Assembly (NCBI RefSeq): GCF_016464385.1
Contig: NZ_JADMLH010000009.1
Coordinates: 200,775 to 264,774, forward strand
Length of the DNA stretch: 64,000 nucleotides
From: Nucisporomicrobium flavum
GTDB lineage: Bacteria > Actinomycetota > Actinomycetes > Mycobacteriales > Micromonosporaceae
Direction: 5' to 3'
The notes under the pieces are model-generated. The model was not told the origin of the DNA and did no database searches. It worked only from the letters and a program-made list of their open reading frames with translations. Both the position numbers and the translations under genes were made by a program. Shown piece by piece: positions 45,581-57,299 of the stretch (position 1 is the stretch's first letter; each line of letters begins with the position of its first letter).

Positions 45581-45847
45581 CTAGGCGCCCAGCAGCTCGT
45601 CGACGAAGCACCAGCGCCAGTTCTCACCCGGCTCGTACGAGCGCATCACCGGATGCCCGGTCTCCTCGTGGTGGCGCGACATGTGCCGCCGCGGCGAGGA
45701 ATCGCAGCAGGCCACGTAGCCGCAGTCCAGGCACAGGCGCAGGTGCACCCAGTCCTCGAAGCCGCCCGCCACGCATTCGGGGCAGCCGCCGTCGTACGGC
45801 GCCCGCGGCGTCGGCTCGGTCGCTTCCTTCAGGTGCTGGCAGGTCAA
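45581..45847 (-). CDS. UBP-type zinc finger protein
   Basis: 88 aa. Nearly the whole protein is a ZnF-UBP: CQHL, GGCPECVAGG, HLRLCLDCGYVACCDSSPRR, HMSRHHEETGHPVM. Eukaryotic UBP fingers bind the C-terminus of ubiquitin; bacterial ones have no known ligand. Cys/His spacing is intact for zinc. Its ATG overlaps the antiporter stop by 4 nt and it directly abuts the reductase gene, making a tight three-gene operon. A role as partner of the antiporter C-terminus is inference. Confidence 0.9.
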   Translation of the reverse strand: MTCQHLKEATEPTPRAPYDGGCPECVAGGFEDWVHLRLCLDCGYVACCDSSPRRHMSRHHEETGHPVMRSYEPGENWRWCFVDELLGA

Positions 45848-47418
45848 TCGTCACTCCGGTGCAGTTGGGACTCTTCCAGGTCGAGCTCGCGCTGGGCGCG
45901 GTTGAGCACCTCCTCGGGGATCCGCCCCTCGTTACGGGCGATCTTGAAGACGTGCCGCTCGGCGGTAATCATCTCCCGGCGCAGCCGGCCGTACGCGGCG
46001 GAGGGGGTTTCCTGCTCCTGGTTGCCCAGCCGTTCCCACGCGCCGTTGGAGCGGCTGTCGGTGAGCGCGCGCAGCCGTTCGACCACCGAGGCGGGCGCCC
46101 CGTCCGCGGTGGCCTCGAGCCGTTCACGCGCCGCACGGCTGGCGGCGTGCTGGACGCTGGCCTCCGCGAGCGCGTCCTCGGCGCTGGTGTCCTCGCTGAC
46201 CCCGAGCCGGCGGGCCAGCACCGGCAGCGTGGTCCCCTGCACCAGCAGGGTCAGCACGATGATCGCGAAGGCGACGAACACGAACAGCTCGCGGGGGTAG
46301 TCGGCGCTGGCCACGTCCTCGTTCGGGGGCAGGGTGAGCGCCGCGGCGAGCGTCACCACGCCGCGCATGCCGGCCCAGGCGATCACCGTGGGCACGGTGG
46401 GGGGCGGGCGTTCCTCGCGGGCACGGACCCGCGGGATGAGCCGGGCCAGGTACGTCGCCGGGTACATCCACACGAAGCGGACGACGACCAGGGTGAGGAA
46501 GACCGCCAGGGTGACCCGCACGGTGGTGGCCATGCTGGTCTCGATGTTGCCGATCAGCTCGCGCAGCTGCAGGCCGACGAGGAGGAATACCACGCCCTCG
46601 AGCAGGAACGTGATCAGCCGCCACACCGCGTCCATCTGCAGCCGCGAGGTCGCCGACAGCAGGTACGGGATGCGGTGCCCCAGGTAGAGGCCCGTCACCA
46701 CGACCGCGACGATGCTCGACGTCTTCGCTTCCTCGGCGACGATGACCACGACGAACGGTGTCAGCACCGACACGGCGTCGTCGAGCAGCGGGTCGGTGAT
46801 GCGTTTGTGCAGCCAGGCGGCGCCGAACGCGAAGGCCAGGCCGAACAGGACCCCGCCGCCGGCCTTGAGCGCGACCTCGCCGGCGATCTCCCAGAACCCG
46901 ACGGCGGAGCCGAGCAGCGTGCCGACCGCGACCCGCACCAGCACCAGCGCGGTCGCGTCGTTGAGCAGGCTCTCGCCCTCGAGGATGGTGACCACCCGCC
47001 GGGGCAGCCCGATGCGCCGGGCGATGGCCGTCGCGGACACGGCGTCGGGCGGCGCCACCACCGCGCCCAGCGCCACGCAGGCCGCCAGCGGCACGTCGGG
47101 CAGCAGCGCGTGCAGCACGAAGCCGACCGCGAACGCGGTGAGCACCACGAGGACGACCGCCAGCAGCAGGATGGGCCGCAGGGCGCGGCGGAACGCGACG
47201 AGGTTGGTCTGCAGCGCCGCCACGTACAGCAGGGGCGGCAGGATGCCGATGAGCACCAGCTCGGGCTCGATGTGCACCTCGGGGACGCCCGGCACGTACG
47301 ACAGTCCCAGCCCGGCGACGAGCAGGACCAGCGGCGCGATGAAGCCCAGCCGCCGCGCGAGGGCGGCACCGAGCACCGAGATGGCCACGATGACGACCGT
47401 GTCGACGATGCTCTCCAT
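45844..47418 (-). CDS. Na+/H+ antiporter (CPA1 family)
   Basis: 524 aa from ATG 47418. About 12 TM segments (VDTVVIVAISVLGAALARRL, PLVLLVAGLGLSYVPG) carry the CPA1 signature GAVVAPPDAVSATAIARRIG and the ion-binding SLLNDATALVLVRVAV. A charged cytoplasmic C-terminus of about 130 residues (from RRLGVSEDTSAEDALAE to HRSDD) follows. It exchanges Na+ or K+ for H+ in the plasma membrane. TAAGCT lies 8 nt before the ATG. It heads an operon with a UBP zinc finger gene. Confidence 0.93.
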   Translation of the reverse strand: MESIVDTVVIVAISVLGAALARRLGFIAPLVLLVAGLGLSYVPGVPEVHIEPELVLIGILPPLLYVAALQTNLVAFRRALRPILLLAVVLVVLTAFAVGFVLHALLPDVPLAACVALGAVVAPPDAVSATAIARRIGLPRRVVTILEGESLLNDATALVLVRVAVGTLLGSAVGFWEIAGEVALKAGGGVLFGLAFAFGAAWLHKRITDPLLDDAVSVLTPFVVVIVAEEAKTSSIVAVVVTGLYLGHRIPYLLSATSRLQMDAVWRLITFLLEGVVFLLVGLQLRELIGNIETSMATTVRVTLAVFLTLVVVRFVWMYPATYLARLIPRVRAREERPPPTVPTVIAWAGMRGVVTLAAALTLPPNEDVASADYPRELFVFVAFAIIVLTLLVQGTTLPVLARRLGVSEDTSAEDALAEASVQHAASRAARERLEATADGAPASVVERLRALTDSRSNGAWERLGNQEQETPSAAYGRLRREMITAERHVFKIARNEGRIPEEVLNRAQRELDLEESQLHRSDD

Positions 47419-47567
47419 GGGAGGAGAGCTTAGAGACCTCGGGGCCGGTCCCGCCTGTGGCGCGACCCACGGTCGCGGCCGCCGGCCGTCATGAGTCCGC
47501 GGGGCCGGGTCAGAATGAGCCGTTCTACTCACGCCGGGGACGCCGGCCATGATGCAGGCTGGCGCCC

Positions 47568-48578
47568 ATGACCTTGACCGTTGCCCGCGTGGGCATCACC
47601 GCGGTGGCGAGTTCCCTGCCCGAGCGGGAGGTGACCACCGCCGACCTGCAGGCACGCGTCGCCGCCGCGAGCGGCCTCCCGCTGCCCGCGGGGACCTTCG
47701 CGCAGACGACCGGCATCGATCGGCGCCGGGTCGCCGCCGACGACGAGTACGCCTCCGACCTGGCCATCACCGCCGCGCGGCGGGTCCTCGCCGACGCGGA
47801 CCTGGACGCCCTCGACATCGACCTGCTGCTGTACGCCTCGGCCACCCGCGACATGGTGGAACCGGCCACGGCGCACGTCGTCCAGGCGGCCCTGGGCAGC
47901 CGGGCGCACGCCCTCGACGTGACGAACGCCTGCAACAGCTTCCTCAACGGCATCGACCTCGCCCGCTCGATGATCCTGGCGGGCCGGGCCAGGCGGGCGC
48001 TGGTGGTCACCGGCGAGACGCCCACCCGGTCGATGCGGCCGCGGCTGGACGGCATGGCTCAGGCCCGTACGGCGTTCGCCGGGTTCACGTTCGGCGATGC
48101 GGGGGCCGCGGTGCTGGTGGAGCCGGTGGAGGCCGGCGGGATCGTGGACGTCGACAGCGAGACGTATTCGGAGCACTGGGCGGTCGGCGGCATCTTCGGT
48201 GGCGGCTCGCGGCACCCGCGCGGCGACGAGCACACGTACTTCACCGGCAACGGGCACAAGCTGCGCGGCGTCTTCGAGAAGATCGGGCTGGGGCTGCTGG
48301 AGCGGGTCGCGTACCGCACGGGGTTCGGCTGGGACGACTACGCGAAGGTGCTGGTGCACCAGGTGACCGTGCCGTACCTGCAGCGTTTCGTGGAGGTGGC
48401 CGGGGTGCCGGCCGGCAAGCTCGAGCCCACCCTGCCCGAGCTCGGCAACGTTGCCAGCGCCACGCTCGGCGTCCAGCTCGACCGGGTCCGGCCGGGCCTC
48501 GCCCCCGGCGACCGGGTGCTGTTCGTGGGGCTCGGCGGCGGGGTCAGCCTCATGACCATGGTCTGGGAGGTCTCGTGA
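47568..48578 (+). CDS. Thiolase-fold condensing enzyme, KAS III/OleA-like
   Basis: 336 aa. The Cys-His-Asn triad is complete: DVTNACNSFLNGIDLA (Cys), VLVHQVTVPYL (His) and LGNVASATLG (Asn). Canonical FabH has a different Cys-site context (AACAGF); the NAC-x-FLNG pattern is closer to OleA, which joins two fatty acyl-CoAs head to head. It opens a six-gene cluster in which every junction overlaps. The ATG has no RBS; AGGCTG lies 6 nt upstream, so a leaderless message is possible. The product would be a beta-keto acid; the acyl donors are unknown. Confidence 0.85.
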   Translation: MTLTVARVGITAVASSLPEREVTTADLQARVAAASGLPLPAGTFAQTTGIDRRRVAADDEYASDLAITAARRVLADADLDALDIDLLLYASATRDMVEPATAHVVQAALGSRAHALDVTNACNSFLNGIDLARSMILAGRARRALVVTGETPTRSMRPRLDGMAQARTAFAGFTFGDAGAAVLVEPVEAGGIVDVDSETYSEHWAVGGIFGGGSRHPRGDEHTYFTGNGHKLRGVFEKIGLGLLERVAYRTGFGWDDYAKVLVHQVTVPYLQRFVEVAGVPAGKLEPTLPELGNVASATLGVQLDRVRPGLAPGDRVLFVGLGGGVSLMTMVWEVS

Positions 48579-49306
48579 CGCAGCTGTGGGTGATCGTGCC
48601 GGCGTACGACGAGGCGGCGCGGATCCAGCAGACGCTCGACGCGCTCGCCGCGCAGACCGACACCGGCTTCGAGCTGCTGGTCGTGGACAACGGTTCGACC
48701 GACGGCACCGCGGACATCGCGCGGGCGTTCCGGGCGCCGTTCCCGGTCCACGTCCTGGTGGAGACCGAGAAGGGCGTCGGCTGCGCCGTCGACACCGGTT
48801 TCCGGTACGCGATCGCGCACGGCGCGCGGCTGCTGGCGCGTACGGACGCCGACTGCCTGCCCCGCCCGGGCTGGGTGGCGGCGGCGCGGGCCGGGCTCAC
48901 CGGCGGCGCCGGGCTGGTGTGCGGGCGGATCACGGCGCGCCGCGACGAGCACGGGCTCCTGGGGCGGGCGTTCTTCTCGGGCCTCGTGGCCGTCGCCGCC
49001 GCGTTCGGCAGGCTGCGCCCGGCGCACCGCGGGAGCGGCTACAAGGCGCCGTACCGGATGCACGCGGGCAACAACATGGCCATCACCGCGGAGCTGTACG
49101 AGGCGTGCGGCGGGATGCCCCGGCGGCCGTCGCCGACCGATCGCACCTTCCTCAACCGCGTACGCCGGACCACCTCGGCCATCCGGCACAGCCGCACGAT
49201 GGTCGTGGAGAACTCGACCCGGCGGCTGGCCGCGTACGGGATAACCGGCACGGCGAAGTGGTATCTCGGCCGCGGCAGCGGCCCGCTGACGGCGGATCCG
49301 CGCTGA
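48575..49306 (+). CDS. GT2 glycosyltransferase, copy A
   Basis: 243 aa, GTGA-coupled to the condensing enzyme. GT-A fold: VIVPAYDEAARIQQTLDALA, LLVVDNGSTDGTADIA, RTDADCLPRPGWVAAAR (DxD-like metal motif) and HAGNNMAITAELYEACGG. It has no obvious TM segments, so it is a soluble or peripheral inverting transferase. It shares much of its sequence with the second GT2 at 50,754 but has a shorter, different end. The acceptor is presumably made by the neighbouring enzymes. Confidence 0.88.
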   Translation: MTQLWVIVPAYDEAARIQQTLDALAAQTDTGFELLVVDNGSTDGTADIARAFRAPFPVHVLVETEKGVGCAVDTGFRYAIAHGARLLARTDADCLPRPGWVAAARAGLTGGAGLVCGRITARRDEHGLLGRAFFSGLVAVAAAFGRLRPAHRGSGYKAPYRMHAGNNMAITAELYEACGGMPRRPSPTDRTFLNRVRRTTSAIRHSRTMVVENSTRRLAAYGITGTAKWYLGRGSGPLTADPR

Positions 49307-50757
49307 TGCTGGGTGATCTGCTGGCGAGCCTGCGCGACGACGATCCACGCCCGGCGGTCCTGGGCTGCGGGCGCACCGGAAGGCCGGTCGTGCGCGCCAC
49401 CCGGGCCGACCTGTCCCGCCTCACCACCGGTTACGCCGCGGCTCTGCACGCCCGCGGCCTCGTTCCCGGTGACACGCTCGGGGTGGCCGTACGCCCCGGC
49501 CCGCGCTCGCTGGCCGTGCTGCTGGCGGCGTACCACCTGGGTCTGCGCGTCGCGGTGCTGGACCCGACCGCCGGCCCGGACGTGCTGCTGGCCCGGCTCG
49601 GGGCGGCCCAGCCGCGGCTCGTGGTTGCCGACGCCGCGGCGCAGGCGGTCGCGGGGTGGGCGGCGCCCCTGGCCCGCCGCGCCCACCTGGCGTTGCCGGA
49701 GCTGGCCGCCCTCGCGCCCACGGTGACCGTCGGCCGGCGCCTGCCCGGCACCGCGCCCGCGTTGCCGCTCGCCCCCGGTCCGCGGCCGCGCGGGTACGAC
49801 GGCGACGGCGACGCGGTGATCGTCTTCACCTCGGGAACGACGAGCCGGCCGCGCGCGGTGGTGCACACCCGGGCGAGCCTGACGGCCGGCATGCGCGCGG
49901 TGCACGACCTGGTCCGCCCGGTGCCGGAGCGGGCCGTGCTGGGCGGGACGTTCTTCGTGCTGGTCCCGTCCCTCGCCGCGGGCGCGGCGGTGGCGCTGCC
50001 GGCCCGGACGCCGCGACGGCTGGTACGGCAGGCGGCCCGGCTCGCTCCGCAGGCGACCTATCTGACGCCGCCGCAGGTGCGGGCCGCCCTGGCAGCGGGC
50101 ATGCGGTTCACCGGCCGCGTCTACAGCGGCTCGGCGCCGGTCAGCGCGGAGCTGCTCGCCCGGGTCCACCGCGCCGGCGCCGACGAGGCCTGGGGCGTGT
50201 ACGCGCTCACCGAGGTCTTCCCCGCCGCCGCGGTCGAATCGACCGCCAAGAGCGCCTTCACCGGCACGGGTGACCTGGTCGGCGAGCTGCTGCCGGGCGT
50301 ACGGGCGCGGACCGCGGCGGACGGGCAGCTGCTGCTCGCGGGGCCGAACGCGGCCGACCGCTACCTCGGCGCCGACCGTACGGAGTGGGTCGAGACCGGG
50401 GACGTCGGCCGGGTCGAGGGCACGCGGGTGGTGCTGGGCGGCCGCCGCAAGGACATGATCCTGCGCGGGGCCGAGAACATCTATCCCGGCCTGTACGAGC
50501 CGGCGCTGCACGTACCGGGCGTCGACCTTGCCGTGATCGTGGGGGTACCGGCCGGCGACGGCGACGAGCGGGTGGTCGCCGTGGTGCAGCCGGCCGCCGG
50601 GGTGCCGGCGGAGGCGGTGCGGGCCGCTCTGCGCGTACCTCTGGATCGGATGGGGTCCGCACGGCCCGACGCGGTCGTCGTTGCGCAGGTCCCGCTGGCG
50701 GGCCGGTCGCGCAAGCCGGACCGGGCCGCGGCGGCGCGGCTGGCGGCGGCGTCGTGA
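49306..50757 (+). CDS. AMP-dependent acyl ligase, OleC-like candidate
   Basis: 483 aa, starting in TGATG with the GT2 stop. Adenylation motifs: FTSGTTSRPRAVVHT (A3), WGVYALTEVFPAAAVES (A5), ETGDVGRVEG (A7), GGRRKDMILRGAENIYP (A8) and AGRSRKPDRA with the C-terminal Lys. It is shorter than most acyl-CoA ligases. The TE-x-x-P context after A5 recalls OleC, which forms beta-lactones from beta-hydroxy acids, but ordinary acyl-CoA or acyl-AMP ligase activity fits equally. No carrier protein is in the cluster, which argues against loading onto an ACP. Confidence 0.82.
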   Translation: MLGDLLASLRDDDPRPAVLGCGRTGRPVVRATRADLSRLTTGYAAALHARGLVPGDTLGVAVRPGPRSLAVLLAAYHLGLRVAVLDPTAGPDVLLARLGAAQPRLVVADAAAQAVAGWAAPLARRAHLALPELAALAPTVTVGRRLPGTAPALPLAPGPRPRGYDGDGDAVIVFTSGTTSRPRAVVHTRASLTAGMRAVHDLVRPVPERAVLGGTFFVLVPSLAAGAAVALPARTPRRLVRQAARLAPQATYLTPPQVRAALAAGMRFTGRVYSGSAPVSAELLARVHRAGADEAWGVYALTEVFPAAAVESTAKSAFTGTGDLVGELLPGVRARTAADGQLLLAGPNAADRYLGADRTEWVETGDVGRVEGTRVVLGGRRKDMILRGAENIYPGLYEPALHVPGVDLAVIVGVPAGDGDERVVAVVQPAAGVPAEAVRAALRVPLDRMGSARPDAVVVAQVPLAGRSRKPDRAAAARLAAAS

Positions 50758-51488
50758 GGGAGCTCGCCGTCGTCGTGCCCGCCTACAACGAGGCGCGGCT
50801 GCTGCCCGGCACGCTGGCCGCCCTCGCCGCCCAGACGGACCGGGACTTCACGCTCGTGGTCGTGGACAACGCCTCCACCGACCCGACCGCCGAGATCGCG
50901 GCCGGTTTTCCCGGCGAGGTCGAGGTGGTCGGCGAGCCCGAGCCGGGCGCGGGCACGGCCGCCGACACCGGATTCCGGTACGCGATCAGCCACGGCGCGA
51001 CGAAGCTGCTGCGCACCGACGCGGACTGCCTGCCGGCGCCGGACTGGGTCGCCGCGGCCCGGTCCCTCCTGGACGCGCACGACCTGGTCTGCGGCCGCAG
51101 CGTGCCGCGCGCCGACGAGCAGCCCGGCTGGGCGCACCGTGTGCTCTACCCGCTGGTGGTCCGGCTGGCCGCCCGGGCCGGCCGGTGGCTGCACCGCTCG
51201 CCGTCGGCGCTGGCGCCGTTCGTGCTGGTCCACGGTCACAACCTGGCCATCACGGCGGCCCTGTACGAGCGCTGCGGCGGCACGCCGAGGGAGGCGCTGG
51301 GTGACGGCGCCGAGGACGTCACGCTGCTCAACCGCGCCCGCCGGCACAGCGCCCGGATCGTCCGGGCCGAGCATCTGGTGGTCGAGACGAGCCTGCGACG
51401 GCTTCGCGCCTGGGGTGGCCTGCGGACGCTGCTGTGGCACTGGGACCGCCGCTACCGGCCCGCGCCGGAGGAGGTGCATGTCCGATGA
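50754..51488 (+). CDS. GT2 glycosyltransferase, copy B
   Basis: 244 aa, GTGA-coupled to the ligase. Motifs match copy A: VVVPAYNEARLLPGTLAALA, LVVVDNASTDPTAEIA, RTDADCLPAPDWVAAAR and HGHNLAITAALYERCGG. A hydrophobic stretch (RVLYPLVVRLAARAG) may bind membrane. The two GT2s differ in acceptor regions and may act in sequence or as a pair. Overlap with the P450 start is ATGA. Confidence 0.88.
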   Translation: MRELAVVVPAYNEARLLPGTLAALAAQTDRDFTLVVVDNASTDPTAEIAAGFPGEVEVVGEPEPGAGTAADTGFRYAISHGATKLLRTDADCLPAPDWVAAARSLLDAHDLVCGRSVPRADEQPGWAHRVLYPLVVRLAARAGRWLHRSPSALAPFVLVHGHNLAITAALYERCGGTPREALGDGAEDVTLLNRARRHSARIVRAEHLVVETSLRRLRAWGGLRTLLWHWDRRYRPAPEEVHVR

Positions 51489-52552
51489 GCGCCCGCAGCC
51501 GGGACCGCCGGGTCTACCTGGGCAGCCATCCGGTGCTGTTCGCGCTGCTCGCGGCGACGCGGCGACGGCCCGTGACGCGGCTGGGCCGGACGCTGCTCAT
51601 CCACGACCGGGAGGCGTTCGTCGCGGGGCTGACGCGGATCCCGCTGGACCGGACCGCGCCCGGCACCACCGGCGGCGCGGCCGGCCGGCTGACCGGCGGT
51701 GACCTGCTGTTCGACCAGCAGGGCGACGACCATCGGCAGACCCGCCGGGCGACCTCCGACGCGCTGGGCGCCACGGGCGTGCAGCGGCTGCGTCCGCTGT
51801 GGACCGGGCTGCTCGACCGGCGGCTCGAGCCGCTCGCCGACGGCGGCCGGGTCGACCTGGTCCCGGTCGCGGCGGAGATCGCCGGGACGACCGCCGCCGC
51901 GCTCGTCGGCGCCGCCGTCGACGGTCCGGAGCTCGCGGACGCGGCCCGGGCGGCGGCAGCGGCGGCGGCCAGGGACCACCTGCCGGGGTTGCGCCGCCGC
52001 GGCACCGCCGACGTGGCCCGGGCCGCCACGGAACGCCTGACCGCGCTGGTCGCGCCGGACGGCGGCTCGGAGGCGGGCCTGGCGACCATGCTGGCGGTCG
52101 CCGCGATCACCACGACGGTCGCCGCGCTGCCGCGGGCCGCGGCCTGGGCCTGCGACGCCGACCTCTGGGCGTACGCGGACAGCCCCGCCCTCGCCGACGA
52201 GCTGCTGCGGGTCACCGCCCCCACGCCCCTGCTGCCCCGGGTGGCGGCGGAGGCGGGCGAGCTGCCCGGCGGCTGCCCGGTCCGCGCCGGTGACCGGATG
52301 CTGCTCGTCGCCCGCCACGCCGTGGACGCGCACCGCGGCGAACCCGACCCCGAGCGGCCCGCGCCGGCCCGTACGGCCCAGCTGGTCTTCGGGGCGGGAC
52401 CGCACGCCTGCCCCGGAGCCCGCCTCGCCCGGGTGCAGGTGGCTGACATGCTGCGGGCGCTGGCGCCGTACCGGCCGGTGGTCGTGCGGGCGCGGGTGGA
52501 CCGGCGCTCAGCGCTGCCGTCCTGGCGGTCCCTGGTGGTGCGGGCGTCGTGA
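51485..52552 (+). CDS. Cytochrome P450, atypical I-helix
   Basis: 355 aa, shorter than usual bacterial P450s (about 400). The heme loop FGAGPHACPGARLAR is intact, as are the K-helix ExxR (ELLRVTAP) and the C-helix HxxxR (DDHRQTRR). The I-helix reads AVAAITTTVAAL, without the acidic residue of AGx(D/E)T, so oxygen activation may be unusual. It starts in ATGA overlap with GT2 copy B. It probably oxidises the acyl chain or a lactone made by the cluster; no ferredoxin gene is adjacent. Confidence 0.85.
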   Translation: MSARSRDRRVYLGSHPVLFALLAATRRRPVTRLGRTLLIHDREAFVAGLTRIPLDRTAPGTTGGAAGRLTGGDLLFDQQGDDHRQTRRATSDALGATGVQRLRPLWTGLLDRRLEPLADGGRVDLVPVAAEIAGTTAAALVGAAVDGPELADAARAAAAAAARDHLPGLRRRGTADVARAATERLTALVAPDGGSEAGLATMLAVAAITTTVAALPRAAAWACDADLWAYADSPALADELLRVTAPTPLLPRVAAEAGELPGGCPVRAGDRMLLVARHAVDAHRGEPDPERPAPARTAQLVFGAGPHACPGARLARVQVADMLRALAPYRPVVVRARVDRRSALPSWRSLVVRAS

Positions 52553-53394
52553 GGCTCGCTGTCACGGGCGCGTCCGGTTTCTGCGGTACGGCAGTCGCCC
52601 GGCTCGCGGCGTCCGCCGGGCACGAGGTGGTCTGCGTGGGCAGGCATCCCGGCCCGGTGGGCGAGCACGTGTTCTGGGACGCCACCGCGGCCCCTCCCGA
52701 CCTGGCCGGCGTCGACGCCGTGGTGCACCTGGCCGCCGCGGTGGGCGATCCACGGCCCGGGCGGGCGGCCGAGGAGGCGTACCGGGCGGTGAACGCCGGC
52801 GGGACGGCGCGGCTGCTCGACGCCGCCCGCGGCCGGCCCGTCGTGTGGGTGAGCAGCGCCAGCGTGTACCGGCCCGGCCCGTACGCCGCCCCGGTGCGCG
52901 AGGATCATCCGGCCGACGGGCAGCGCGGCGCGTACGGGCGGACGAAGGCGGAGGGTGAGCGGCTCGCCCTGGCGGCGGGCGCGGTGGCGTTGCGCCCCCG
53001 GGCCGTGTACGGCGACGGCGACCGGCACCTGCTGCCCCGCCTGCGCCGCGTGGTCCGGGGCGGATACGCCTGGCTGCCCGGACCCGACGTGCGGATGAGC
53101 CTGACCGCCGTGGAGAACCTGGCGGCGGCGTGCCTGGCGGCGCTGGACTGGCCGGGTGGCGCGTACAACATCGCCGACGCGGAGCCGTACGGCCGCGACG
53201 AGGTGCTGTCCCGGGTGCTCGGCGTACCCGTCCGGCACCTGCCCGCCGGCCTGGCGCGCGGGCTCGCGGTGGTCTCGCCGGCGCTGACCCGCTATGCCGT
53301 CGACCAGCTCACCGACGGCATGGTCCTCGATCTCACGCGGGCCCGGGACCAGGGGTACGCGCCGCAGCACAGCGTGGCGGACTACCTCGTGTAG
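52549..53394 (+). CDS. NAD(P)-dependent SDR epimerase/dehydrogenase, OleD-like candidate
   Basis: 281 aa, GTGA-coupled to the P450. Extended-SDR features: LAVTGASGFCGTAVARLA nucleotide site, VVHLAAAVGD, VWVSSASVY and the catalytic YxxxK in YGRTKAEGE. Extended SDRs of the 3-beta-HSD/OleD type reduce a beta-keto acid to the beta-hydroxy acid; sugar epimerases share the same fold. The cluster context favours the reduction, by inference. Its 3' end overlaps the convergent lipoprotein gene by 13 bp. Confidence 0.85.
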   Translation: MRLAVTGASGFCGTAVARLAASAGHEVVCVGRHPGPVGEHVFWDATAAPPDLAGVDAVVHLAAAVGDPRPGRAAEEAYRAVNAGGTARLLDAARGRPVVWVSSASVYRPGPYAAPVREDHPADGQRGAYGRTKAEGERLALAAGAVALRPRAVYGDGDRHLLPRLRRVVRGGYAWLPGPDVRMSLTAVENLAAACLAALDWPGGAYNIADAEPYGRDEVLSRVLGVPVRHLPAGLARGLAVVSPALTRYAVDQLTDGMVLDLTRARDQGYAPQHSVADYLV

Positions 53395-53981
53395 ACGACG
53401 GGCGAACGGTACAGCGTGCCGGCGTGTGTACCGTCGCCGCTGCGCCGGGTGACCACGGCGTCCAGCGAGAAGACGTAGCCGGTCTTCGGATCGAGGTTCT
53501 TGATCGTGGCCGTCATCGGGCCGCAGGCCCGCTGCGGCCTGACCGGCACCCAGCCGACGTCTCGCTGCTTGCCCGGCCGCAGGTCCTGGCTGATCGCGGT
53601 GAGCCGGTACTCGACGAGGTTGTAGCCGCCGACGTTGTACCAGGACGCGGTCGCGCTGGTGGTGCCCGCGACGACGTCGAGCGCCTGGATCCGCGAGAAG
53701 TGCACGGTGTCCGGCGCGCACGTCCGGCTGGGCGCCGGCCGCGGCGTGGTCTTCAGCGGCAGGAAGCCGGTGGCGGTCGGCAGCGGGTACGGCGGCACGC
53801 CGCTGCTGGGCGTGGGCGACGGGGTGGCGCTGCCGCGGGTGACGACGGTCCACGGCGTACCCACGTTGGTGTCCGTAGCCGCTCCCGCCACGCCGGACCC
53901 GGAGGAATCGCCGCCGAGCACGCCGCACCCGGTCAGCACGAGGGGCGCGAAGAGCAGCAGCCACCGGTTGCGCTGGCTCAT
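53382..53981 (-). CDS. Lipoprotein with FN3-like domain
   Basis: 199 aa from ATG 53981, with AAGGAGGGA as a strong ribosome-binding site. Signal peptide and lipobox: RWLLLFAPLVLTGC, so the protein is lipid-anchored on the outer face of the membrane. After a Ser/Thr/Pro-rich linker (about 30-85), the C-terminal about 110 residues have the beta-sandwich character of fibronectin type III (ATASWYNVGGYNLVEYRLTA, ATIKNLDPKTGYVFSLDAVV). The role is unknown. It is convergent with the biosynthetic cluster and is not part of it. Confidence 0.8.
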   Translation of the reverse strand: MSQRNRWLLLFAPLVLTGCGVLGGDSSGSGVAGAATDTNVGTPWTVVTRGSATPSPTPSSGVPPYPLPTATGFLPLKTTPRPAPSRTCAPDTVHFSRIQALDVVAGTTSATASWYNVGGYNLVEYRLTAISQDLRPGKQRDVGWVPVRPQRACGPMTATIKNLDPKTGYVFSLDAVVTRRSGDGTHAGTLYRSPVVYTR

Positions 53982-54051
53982 GCGTCCCTCCTTCCTGACG
54001 TCGCCGGGCATGGGCCTTACCCGGAAAGCATCGTCAGGGCGGGGAGCGACT

Positions 54052-54744
54052 TTAGGATGCGCCGGCCGCGCCGCCGTACAGCTCGCGGGCGCGGCGGGCC
54101 AGGTCCTTGGTCGCCGCCGAGTTCGCCCACGTGCCCAGCACCATCCCGGCGCCCGGCACCACCTTGGCGACCATCCGCTTCGCGGCGCGGACGCCGGCCA
54201 TCTGGGCCAGCTTCACGCCGAGCTTGAGCATGACGCCGGTGAGCGGACGGTCGGCGGAGCCGGCGAAGAGCCGACTGGCGCGTTCCCGGCCGGCGGCCAC
54301 GCCCAGTGCGACGCGGGCGGCCTCGGCGGCCTTGTGCACCCGCTGCAGGACCAGCAGGTCGGTGGCGCGGTCGGGGCCGGTCGGGTCGGCGCCGTACGCG
54401 GCGGCGATGTGCAGCACCATCCGCGCCTGGGTCCAGGCCAGGACGCCGACGTCCACGACCGCGCCGGGCAGGCCGGTGGCGCCGGAGACGGCACCGGAGA
54501 GGCGGGCGTGGTTGAGGAACCGCCGGGCGGCCTGCTGCGCGAGGTCGTCGGCGGAGATGCCGGGGTCCTCCTCCCGCGCCCGCTGGGCCCAGCGCTGGGC
54601 CTGCGGGCCGAGGCGGCGGACCGCTTCCAGCGCGAGGTGCTCGGGGGCGTACTGCGGGTCGGCCTTCATGCGGGCCCAGAGGGTCCCGGGGAGGTCCTCG
54701 TCGTCGGGGGTGGCGGGGGCGGGGGGTACGGCGGGCTCGGTCAC
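54052..54744 (-). CDS. EcsC family protein
   Basis: 230 aa from GTG 54744, with GGAG 7 nt upstream. The EcsC domain covers most of the protein: LNHARLSGAVSGATGLPGAV, VDVGVLAWTQARMVLHIAAA and a C-terminal glycine-rich hydrophobic helix (VVPGAGMVLGTWANSAATK). EcsC proteins influence secretion and transporters in Bacillus, mechanism unknown. An acidic Pro-rich leader (EPAVPPAPATPDDEDLPG) precedes it. Divergent from the GGDEF-EAL gene across a gap with a palindrome. Confidence 0.8.
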   Translation of the reverse strand: MTEPAVPPAPATPDDEDLPGTLWARMKADPQYAPEHLALEAVRRLGPQAQRWAQRAREEDPGISADDLAQQAARRFLNHARLSGAVSGATGLPGAVVDVGVLAWTQARMVLHIAAAYGADPTGPDRATDLLVLQRVHKAAEAARVALGVAAGRERASRLFAGSADRPLTGVMLKLGVKLAQMAGVRAAKRMVAKVVPGAGMVLGTWANSAATKDLARRARELYGGAAGAS

Positions 54745-54798
54745 CGGAACGCTCCGAAGGAAGGGGCGGATGGACGGCTGACGCCATTGTGCCTTGCA

Positions 54799-54812
54799 GA
54801 TGCACGTGCATC
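54799..54812. promoter_or_regulatory. Perfect 14-bp palindrome in a divergent gap
   Basis: GATGCACGTGCATC is a perfect palindrome between the EcsC gene (minus) and the GGDEF-EAL gene (plus). Its position suits an operator controlling one or both genes. The rest of the 203-bp gap (54745-54947) has no gene. Confidence 0.45.
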
Positions 54813-54947
54813 CCATGGATCGGCGAGATCCCACGCTCCGCGGTCGTACAGTGACGCGACAGCCGTGCCGGTTCTGCTCAGGCCGTACCCCGGGGAACCG
54901 ATTAGCCAACCCGGAAGCCAGGCAGACCATCGAGGGGACGACACGGC

Positions 54948-57299
54948 ATGACGGTCGACGAACGGCAGGTGGAGCGGCTCCGGCCCACTCCCATGCTGCT
55001 GACGGCGGCCGCGGTCCTCGTGATCTCGATCGTGCTGTTCGCGGTCAACTACACCGAGCAGCGCACCCAGGTCGTCTGGGGCTGGATGCCGGCGATGCTC
55101 GGCACGGCGGTCGCGGGCTGGTCGTGCTGGCGTACGGCGTTCGCGCCCGGCCTGGACCCGGTCACCGCGCGCATCTGGCGGTCCCTGGCGGTCGTCTGCG
55201 TGCTCATCGTGCTCGGCGTCACCGGCGACGCCCGCCTCTACGTGGTCAATCCCGCCGCCGGCGACCAGGACCACGACGCGCCCACCTCCGCGGCGTACGC
55301 GCTGGCGATGCTCCTGCTGCTGTGGACCCTGCTCCGGCTGCCGATGGCCCGCGGGCGGGAACGCGAACGGGTCATGCTCCGGTTCGTGCTGGACGCCGCC
55401 ACGGTCTCCATCACGCTGGGCATCTTCTCCTGGTACCTGATCACCCGGGTGCTCGACGCCTGGGCGGCCGACAGCTCGGCGGCCGTACCCCTGCTCATGC
55501 TCACCGCCCTGGGCCTGGTCGGCGCGCTGGCCTTCGTCAAGGTCGCGGTCAGCGGCTTCGGCGGCCTGGACCGGGTCGCGCTGCGCCTGCTCGCCGCCGC
55601 GGCGGCCGTCGGCGCGATCGGCGGCGGCCTGCTACCGCTGTTCCTCGAGATGCACCCGGGTCTGAGCGGCTCGATGATGTTCATCCCCGCGACCCTGCTG
55701 TTCGTCGCGCTCGCCGCGGACCGCCAGCGCCGCGCCGCCGGTACGGACGTGCCGGTACGGCGGCGCCGCTCGTTCAGCGTCGTGCCCTACCTGGCGGTGG
55801 CCGCGACCGACGGCCTGCTGCTCATGGTGGGCGGCACGGCCGGGCACGTGGTGCTGACCGTCGCGCTGGCCGCCGTGCTGCTCACCGCGCTCGTGGTGGC
55901 GCGTCAGGTCAACGCGCTGGCGGAGAACGGCCGGCTGCTGCGCCGCGTCGACGCGAACCTGCTCGAGCTCAACCGCTACCAGACCCAGCTCAGCCACCGG
56001 GCCAACCACGACGACCTGACCGACCTGGCGAACCGCGCCCTGTTCGAGCAGCGGACCCAGGAGGCGCTCGCCGAGGCGGAGACCGGCGCCGGGGCCGGGA
56101 CGCTCAGCCTGGCGCTGATCGACCTGGACGACTTCAAGGCGATCAACGACCGGCTCGGCCACGCCGTGGGCGACGCGCTGCTGGTCGTGGTCGCCGACCG
56201 GCTGCGCGAGGCGGTCCGCACCGATGACGTCGTGGCCCGCCTCGGCGGCGACGAGTTCGGCCTGCTCCTGCGCGGGCTGCGCAGCGACGAGGCGACCGAG
56301 GTGCTGGACCGCATCGCCGAGTCGCTGACCCGGCCGGTGCACGCGCTCGGCTACGACCTGCTGGTCAAGGCCAGCATCGGCCTGGCAGAGGTGTGGCCCG
56401 GCGCGAGCCCCCAGGAGCTGCTGCGCCGCGCCGACCTGGCCATGTACGCCGCCAAGGAGCGGGGCAAGGGCCGGCACGCCGTCTACGACGCCCGCCTCGA
56501 GCAGGACCAGGCGGCCGACGCCCAGCTGGGCGCGGAGCTGCGCCGGGCCCTGGACAACGGCGACTTCACGCTGGTCTACCAGCCGATCGTGGCGCTGCCG
56601 GACGGCCGGTGGACCTCGCTGGAGACGCTGATCCGCTGGAAGCACCCCGAGCGCGGCTTCATCGGCCCCGACGTGTTCATCCCGATCGCCGAGCGCACCG
56701 GGCTGATCGTGCCGCTGGGCGACTGGATCCTGCGGACCGCGCTGCGCCAGGCCGCCGAGTGGCAGGACCGCTACGGCACGGCCGCCCCGGGCGAGATCGG
56801 CGTCAACGTCTCCGCCCGCCAGCTGCGCGAGCCGGGCTTCGCCGCGGACGTCCGGGCGGCGCTGGCCGACACCGGCTTCGACCCGGAGAAGCTGGTGGTC
56901 GAGGTGACCGAGACGGCCGTGTTCGACGGCGGCATCGCGCTGGACACCCTGCAGAACCTGGTGACGCTCGGCGTGAAGGTGGCGCTCGACGACTTCGGTA
57001 CCGGGCACTCGTCGCTCGGCCTGCTGCGGACCTGCCCGGCGGACACCCTCAAGGTCGACAAATCGTTCGTCGACGGGATCGGCGGCCGCTCCGAGGAGGC
57101 GGTCATCGCCACCGCGATGATCCAGATCACGAACGGCCTGCACCTGCAGGCGATCGCGGAGGGCGTGGAGACCGCCGAGCAGGCCGAGACCCTCTACCGG
57201 CTCGGGTACCGCTTCGCGCAGGGCTACCACTTCTCGCGGCCCCTGTCCCCGGATCAGGTCGACGCCCAGCTCGCCGCGCACAGCGCGCTCGTGGTGTGA
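54948..57299 (+). CDS. Membrane GGDEF-EAL protein with ETL variant
   Basis: 783 aa with GAGGGG before the ATG. Eight or so hydrophobic segments occupy residues about 15-310, then GGDEF with intact RLGGDEFGLLL, then EAL with NVSARQL, EVTET, DDFGTGHSSLGLL, KVDKSF and AIAEGVE. The EAL signature itself reads ETL (SLETLIRWKHPE); the Glu is kept, so phosphodiesterase activity may persist. It resembles the other GGDEF-EAL protein at 26,654 in overall plan. The next gene is a chemoreceptor 103 bp downstream. Confidence 0.9.
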   Translation: MTVDERQVERLRPTPMLLTAAAVLVISIVLFAVNYTEQRTQVVWGWMPAMLGTAVAGWSCWRTAFAPGLDPVTARIWRSLAVVCVLIVLGVTGDARLYVVNPAAGDQDHDAPTSAAYALAMLLLLWTLLRLPMARGRERERVMLRFVLDAATVSITLGIFSWYLITRVLDAWAADSSAAVPLLMLTALGLVGALAFVKVAVSGFGGLDRVALRLLAAAAAVGAIGGGLLPLFLEMHPGLSGSMMFIPATLLFVALAADRQRRAAGTDVPVRRRRSFSVVPYLAVAATDGLLLMVGGTAGHVVLTVALAAVLLTALVVARQVNALAENGRLLRRVDANLLELNRYQTQLSHRANHDDLTDLANRALFEQRTQEALAEAETGAGAGTLSLALIDLDDFKAINDRLGHAVGDALLVVVADRLREAVRTDDVVARLGGDEFGLLLRGLRSDEATEVLDRIAESLTRPVHALGYDLLVKASIGLAEVWPGASPQELLRRADLAMYAAKERGKGRHAVYDARLEQDQAADAQLGAELRRALDNGDFTLVYQPIVALPDGRWTSLETLIRWKHPERGFIGPDVFIPIAERTGLIVPLGDWILRTALRQAAEWQDRYGTAAPGEIGVNVSARQLREPGFAADVRAALADTGFDPEKLVVEVTETAVFDGGIALDTLQNLVTLGVKVALDDFGTGHSSLGLLRTCPADTLKVDKSFVDGIGGRSEEAVIATAMIQITNGLHLQAIAEGVETAEQAETLYRLGYRFAQGYHFSRPLSPDQVDAQLAAHSALVV

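Follow-up and report, generated by a model that had tools for sequence, protein, structure and literature searches.

What would an operon make that joins the condensing logic of olefin biosynthesis to glycosyltransferases and a cytochrome P450? The question is raised by six genes of Nucisporomicrobium flavum (Micromonosporaceae; genome size 9.0 Mb) at positions 47568-53394 of a 64,000-nucleotide stretch of contig NZ_JADMLH010000009.1, referred to here as the window. The operon is real and conserved. It corresponds by orthology to a pathway that has been predicted in Actinoplanes atraurantiacus and carries one glycosyltransferase gene more. Its product is very probably some glycosylated lipid, most likely a glycosylated, oxidised head-to-head fatty acid, be it a lactone or not.

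All six genes lie on the forward strand. The first encodes a condensing enzyme of the 3-ketoacyl-acyl carrier protein (ACP) synthase III type (KAS III; 47568..48578; 336 amino acids, aa). It is followed by a family 2 glycosyltransferase (GT2a; 48575..49306; 243 aa), a divergent AMP-dependent acyl ligase (49306..50757; 483 aa), a second family 2 glycosyltransferase (GT2b; 50754..51488; 244 aa), a P450 (51485..52552; 355 aa) and an OleD-like extended short-chain dehydrogenase/reductase (SDR; 52549..53394; 281 aa). The frames, read directly, overlap by 4, 1, 4, 4 and 4 nt, at GTGA (48575), TGATG (49304-49308), GTGA (50754), ATGA (51485) and GTGA (52549). An earlier interpretation made without database searches, the sequence-only reading, had described six genes coupled by five 4-nt or TGATG overlaps, and all five junctions are in the sequence. 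Each of the six proteins scores above the cut-off of its Pfam family and the NCBIfam names agree; the Pfam match of the P450 is weak (26.6 bits, cut-off 22.8), with ExxR and FGxGxHxCPG present.

In an earlier study (Robinson et al., 2020; PMC7064751), A. atraurantiacus is described as having OleA, a glycosyltransferase, OleC, a P450 and OleD, with no oleB, and its proposed product is a hydroxylated, glycosylated β-lactone. The orthologues of this species (L124) stand in the same order as in the window, with identities of 76% (KAS), 76% (GT2a), 72% (ligase), 61% (P450) and 68% (SDR), and the published OleA is presumably this KAS. The A. atraurantiacus cluster thus shares gene order, lack of OleB and predicted product with the window, whereas an additional GT2 gene between ligase and P450 is present in the window only, and the ligase that the study calls OleC has a window orthologue that fails the OleC-type model. 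The sequence-only reading had put forward a new product class; this prediction is not new, because the same product type was already proposed in 2020 in PMC7064751. No report of the product of the cluster was found in the open-access literature, subscription journals lying mostly outside that search. The present analysis adds how widely the cluster is spread and that alternative loci exist, and shows that the P450 is unusual and that the ligase lies far from OleC.

Conservation and spread of the operon

Two sets of loci from relatives were compared: L037-L101, which include 58 same-genus loci, and the named loci L102-L181 (n = 80), the best 80 of 209 relatives. The genus grouping takes in Actinoplanes, Couchioplanes and Pseudosporangium. 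The two sets share loci, so that counts from both are not independent. A ligase match at E 1e-40 was found in 58 of the 66 same-genus relatives and in 66 of 150 genomes overall, own genome counted; such frequency in the genus suggests a steady role in these bacteria. Of the 58 same-genus loci, 54 retain the whole core order KAS-GT2a-ligase-(GT2b)-P450-SDR, and two of the four exceptions (L068, L069) are truncated at contig ends. Wherever both genes could be placed, GT2a lies directly 3' of the KAS gene (57/57 same-genus loci), with an overlap of 4 nt in 53 and of 1 nt in 2. GT2b is matched in 39 of the 58 and lacks a match in 19, one of them the truncated L069. Ka/Ks (the ratio of nonsynonymous to synonymous substitution rates) was 0.05-0.40 in all 18 gene comparisons (six genes in three relatives), and all six genes are therefore under purifying selection.

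Among the 80 named loci, the core order is kept in 53, of which 39 have one glycosyltransferase and 14 have two. The conservation of gene order that the sequence-only reading called for is strongly supported. Another 13 have a rearranged order, KAS-GT-P450-ligase-SDR, referred to here as Actinomadura-type; three Micromonospora loci have an alternative gene set, and the other 11 are incomplete or different, several at contig ends. Genera represented among the named loci include Actinoplanes and kin, Micromonospora, Planosporangium, Virgisporangium, Kitasatospora, Streptomyces and Nocardioides. Even sampling of the phylum gave a KAS match at E 1e-45 in 3 of 396 genomes, own genome counted.

Four ligase-positive family members lie outside the genus: the core is present in L054 and L092, a GT2 match is missing from L089, and L098 follows the Actinomadura-type order. 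The eight same-genus relatives without the ligase comprise G019, where nothing matched the KAS at E 1e-20, six with KAS matches of only 30-39%, and G021, whose KAS is 62-63% identical and has other partners. A complete five-gene version (KAS, GT2, ligase, P450 and an adjoining oxidoreductase) was seen on the linear plasmid pKVP2 of Streptomyces viridifaciens (L293). Two copies appear broken or oddly framed, with a stop within the ligase match in L097 (G031) and GT2a inside an 879-aa frame in L094 (G005), perhaps through decay or assembly error.

The condensing enzyme, the reductase and the proposed pathway

How could these enzymes work together? We propose a self-contained operon, a reading whose chances as a whole we put at about even. 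The OleA-like KAS would catalyse a non-decarboxylative, head-to-head condensation of two activated fatty acyl chains, the SDR would reduce the 3-keto group, the P450 would oxidise one chain and the GT2 enzyme or enzymes would attach a sugar at an oxygen. The ligase would adenylate the 2-alkyl-3-hydroxy acid and then release the product, most likely as a β-lactone. We infer all of this: each reaction step and the order of the steps, the length of the chains, the identity of the sugar and the closing of a lactone. The logic of condensing enzyme, ligase and SDR is shared with the ole olefin operons (OleABCD or OleA-OleBC-OleD), as are the OleA Glu-Pro pair and the Cys; the window differs from them in that no OleB was found, a P450 and GT2 enzymes are added and the ligase falls outside the OleC clade.

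Is the condensing enzyme OleA-like or FabH-like? Cys122, His264, Asn294 and the OleA-type pair Glu98-Pro99 are present in all 61 rows of a KAS alignment, window counted, from which rows outside set length limits (L057) and a row with no placed start (L053) had been dropped; length limits were applied to the other orthologue alignments as well. In 13 of 13 OleA rows, taken from ole-type loci (KAS, a stretch of about 1 kb, ligase and SDR), position 98 is likewise Glu; none of 29 other KAS III rows has it, nor do the own-genome rows L225 and L226. The 29 rows are 25 from a FabH family search together with L227 and L264-L266, one gene being counted twice (L227, L292). L263, listed among the search rows for other KAS III, is the window-type KAS of G021 and carries the Glu. 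PMC7064751 identifies this Glu as the general base in OleA and states that Pro comes after it in every OleA protein except two.

The best NCBIfam model for the KAS is the OleA-type PRK09258 (NF006720), at 165.7 bits against 114.8 for FabH; a KAS from one ole-type locus scores 388 on this model. A quick KAS tree (as are all three trees of this analysis), which is unrooted, separates the window-type rows from the OleA rows and both from the remaining KAS III rows, with very long branches for L226 and for L220, from a genome of the same order ('nlt-like' for L220 is a label coined in this analysis). An unrooted tree cannot tell which two of these groups are sisters, and residues and hidden Markov model (HMM) scores were therefore relied upon.

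Several results pull the other way. The KAS misses the cut-off of PRK09258 (285 bits), and by identity it is no closer to OleA (25.7% to the 13 OleA rows) than to FabH (25.0% to 26 FabH rows). In PMC7064751, the A. atraurantiacus OleA was active on a p-nitrophenyl ester, and the scant purified protein was unreactive with the acyl-CoAs tried. The near-equal identities would suit a FabH-like KAS, decarboxylative and using a malonyl extender, with a ligase that only loads a fatty acid; the product would then be a hydroxylated, glycosylated fatty acyl with no head-to-head condensation. So would the sequence search of the PDB, where 3row came first by only about 3 bits over the next KAS III entries; its listing name is only 3-oxoacyl-[ACP] synthase III, and we take it to be Xanthomonas OleA. 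Yet a FabH-like enzyme is hard to reconcile with the Glu-Pro pair of the 61 rows and the lack of this Glu from the other KAS III rows, with the higher OleA-type HMM score and with the OleC- and OleD-type partners of the alternative loci described below, and we regard it as quite improbable. OleA-type condensation is, from residues and scores, the probable activity. The OleA-like enzyme of the sequence-only reading therefore holds as to its active-site residues and best HMM match, although it stays below the family cut-off, and the motif given there as NAC-x-FLNG is present as NAC-NS-FLNG, with two residues between rather than one.

The SDR is of the extended type, with TGxxGxxG and YxxxK. Its identification as OleD meets a similar difficulty: OleD (NF042422) is the best among the NCBIfam models listed, although the score of 76.6 bits is far below the cut-off of 580. 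In a search of the phylum with NF042422, all 296 genomes had a match at E 0.001 and none was above the cut-off (best 445 bits), so that only the best rows were used for finding ole-type loci. The OleD-like loci L216, L219, L221 and L222 gave no match to the window KAS query and no OleA or OleC rows. The absence of OleB is supported: a scan of the six cluster genes and of five flanking ones did not find it, and a genome-wide search with one query gave a best own-genome match of E 6.7e-9, a value expected of generic hydrolases. This query came from the ole-type locus L209; it was the hydrolase part 5' of the ligase and matches haloalkane dehalogenase models.

The ligase, the glycosyltransferases and the form of the product

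Does the ligase close a β-lactone? The least secure part of the sequence-only reading is its OleC label, and the ligase is where the proposed lactone step meets most resistance. The protein scores 70 bits on the OleC-type model NF006754 (cut-off 478) and 77 bits on a general acyl-CoA ligase model, below the cut-offs of the acyl-CoA ligase models listed; no OlefBLtnSyn model was among the 25 matches listed out of 66. Its C-terminal Lys and adenylation motifs are conserved. The hinge resembles that of CoA ligases (GRRKDMILRGAENIYP), with Asn-x-Tyr-Pro in all 29 window-type and Actinomadura-type ligase rows and in none of the 13 OleC rows. In the ligase tree, window-type and Actinomadura-type rows form a clade of their own (SH-aLRT, a likelihood-ratio branch support, 100) outside the OleC clade. 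Both this clade and the OleC rows are set apart (SH-aLRT 92, branches long) from 17 further ligases of the genome that holds the window, and kinship to OleC is therefore only suggested. The 17 are frames of <760 aa among the 30 loci of 31 PF00501 matches in that genome.

The motif TE-x-x-P after A5, on which the identification as OleC had leaned, is present as TEVFP. It was rejected as a mark of OleC: all 13 OleC rows have it, and so do 3 of the 17 other stand-alone ligases of the genome. With the cut-off failed, a CoA-ligase-type hinge and an unspecific motif, the OleC label is not borne out by these results. The window-type enzyme offers a test of how β-lactone synthetases differ from CoA ligases.

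The two glycosyltransferases align as paralogues, both with a TDAD motif of the DxD kind. The fold was modelled for GT2a only, with a mean predicted local distance difference test score (pLDDT) of 88.8 and a GT-A-type match list; an attempt to derive the sugar donor from this search was given up, the matches being generic GT-A folds at a template modelling score (TM) of about 0.65. Some clusters appear to do without these enzymes, which tells against the proposed pathway: L089 and L165 have KAS, ligase, P450 and SDR with no GT2 match. In Virgisporangium and Planosporangium clusters, a BrkB-type membrane domain precedes GT2b in one open frame (L143:10151-11860 and L144:10183-11766), which fits a membrane lipid acceptor.

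The same condensation and reduction could also proceed without a lactone, the adenylate or a CoA thioester being passed on to a mycolate-like ester or glycoside, that is, a glycolipid. The hinge, the conserved C-terminal Lys and the position of the ligase outside OleC agree with such a route, as do the placement of GT2a directly 3' of the KAS gene and the frame shared by BrkB and GT2b. Mycolic acid-type lipids are made by the Pks13 route, and a sugar-attached 2-alkyl-3-hydroxy acid would be an analogous end product; the window differs from that route in having no polyketide synthase or ACP among the six genes. On the other side, the same KAS and P450 stand beside OleC-type ligases at four alternative loci, which points to a lactone step. 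We hold the glycolipid to be a lesser possibility, if a substantial one, and a lactone as the end form to be evenly balanced. Lipstatin is the parent of orlistat, and a glycosylated β-lactone would be its sugar counterpart.

The P450, the alternative loci and the flanking genes

The P450 retains ExxR, the heme Cys (Cys309) and the I-helix Thr. The residue before this Thr is Thr209 in the window, and an acid is found in none of 59 window-type rows (Asn in 48, Thr in 9, Ala in 2; the window and 58 named loci, alternative loci included). In the set L037-L101 it is Asn, Thr or Ser in 58/58 rows. In L109, L114, L134, L140 and L148 the P450 is covered by two separate matches, and in L161/L048 it enters undetermined bases. 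A profile alignment places Thr209 opposite the Glu of solved P450s. With the I-helix acid absent, plain hydroxylation is not assured, a further point at odds with the pathway as proposed. The Actinomadura-type P450s carry Glu in 14/14 rows; they are 27-32% identical to the window P450 and occupy another place in the operon, and so look like a separate recruitment.

Could the P450 then catalyse another heme reaction, or serve as a partner of a glycosyltransferase? The replaced acid would be in keeping with this, and the best NCBIfam match of the P450 at the alternative locus L135 is a 'P450-derived glycosyltransferase activator' at 45 bits. That score is far below the cut-off of 343, however, and the activator is not among the matches listed for the window P450. 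The heme Cys, ExxR and Thr are retained, and the P450 also occurs in clusters without any glycosyltransferase. The structural model (pLDDT 91.8) has many P450 fold matches, among which the fatty-acyl P450BioI with acyl-ACP comes first by small rank differences. A non-hydroxylase role is, on balance, unlikely, and oxidation of a fatty acyl chain is still preferred.

The alternative loci throw light on the same enzyme. Three Micromonospora loci (L135, L142, L158) have a window-type KAS (67-68% identity) and P450 (58-59%), no glycosyltransferase match, a ligase of 546-554 aa that stands next to L220 in the OleC clade, an OleD-like SDR (about 343 aa; 215 bits in L135) and one more ligase-like gene each. 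This extra gene has AMP-binding and PP-binding domains in L135, as in a nonribosomal peptide synthetase (NRPS) module; in L142 and L158 it is known only as a 26-27% match. In G021 (L267), a KAS of 62-63% and a P450 of 53% identity accompany an OleC-type ligase and a second ligase-like match; no glycosyltransferase match was found in 20 kb, and no OleD-like gene either, the latter sitting poorly with the proposed reduction step. All three alternative-locus ligases scanned pass the OleC-type cut-off of 478 bits (L135, 554; L142, 557; L267, 500). At L267:6218-7348 (reverse strand), a 377-aa open frame adjoining the OleC-type ligase has no Pfam or PDB sequence match.

The alternative loci exchange ligase and decoration around the same KAS and P450, which makes this pair the constant part. 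Its pairing with an OleC-type ligase at four loci supports a β-lactone logic with exchangeable decoration. Lipstatin bears an amino acid on an oxygen. By inference from these loci, the P450 may supply the oxygen that bears the sugar or, as in lipstatin, an amino acid, and versions with and without glycosyltransferases around one KAS and P450 pair provide a direct way of testing which step the P450 serves. A wider reading, which we offer tentatively and consider rather doubtful as a whole, is a modular family of lipid pathways. The OleA-like KAS and the acid-less P450 would build the oxidised head-to-head fatty acid, to which a sugar module (GT2 enzymes and the non-OleC ligase class) would be joined in the window type and an amino acid module (NRPS-type gene and OleC) in the alternative; the ligase of the window type would then represent a second kind of β-lactone synthetase, shaped independently, or an acyl-transfer ligase.

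The lipstatin (lst) and nocardiolactone (nlt) clusters, like the window, combine KAS III, ligase and SDR without OleB (PMC7064751). Lipstatin is made with a KAS pair, LstA/LstB (PMC12141560), whereas the window has a single KAS, sugar enzymes in place of amino acid enzymes, and a P450. No second KAS and no NRPS gene was found among the six cluster and five flanking genes, and the likeness of lst in its NRPS-type module is to L135, not to the window. L135, L142, L158 and L267 are possible candidates for a P450-containing lipstatin-like pathway.

On either side of the window cluster lie genes for a Na+/H+ exchanger (45844-47463, reverse strand), an unassigned small protein (53382-54011, reverse), an EcsC-family protein (54052-54930, reverse) and a GGDEF-EAL protein (54948-57299, forward). 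They were rejected as members of the cluster, since half of the same-genus loci do without them in the stretch read. The flanking genes recur at 29 of the 58 same-genus loci, and the other 29 are without exchanger and small protein, a few of the 58 stretches being shortened by contig ends. Since these 29 lack the flanks of the window, the cluster looks like a unit found at more than one site, which suggests that it occupies at least two genomic sites in the genus.

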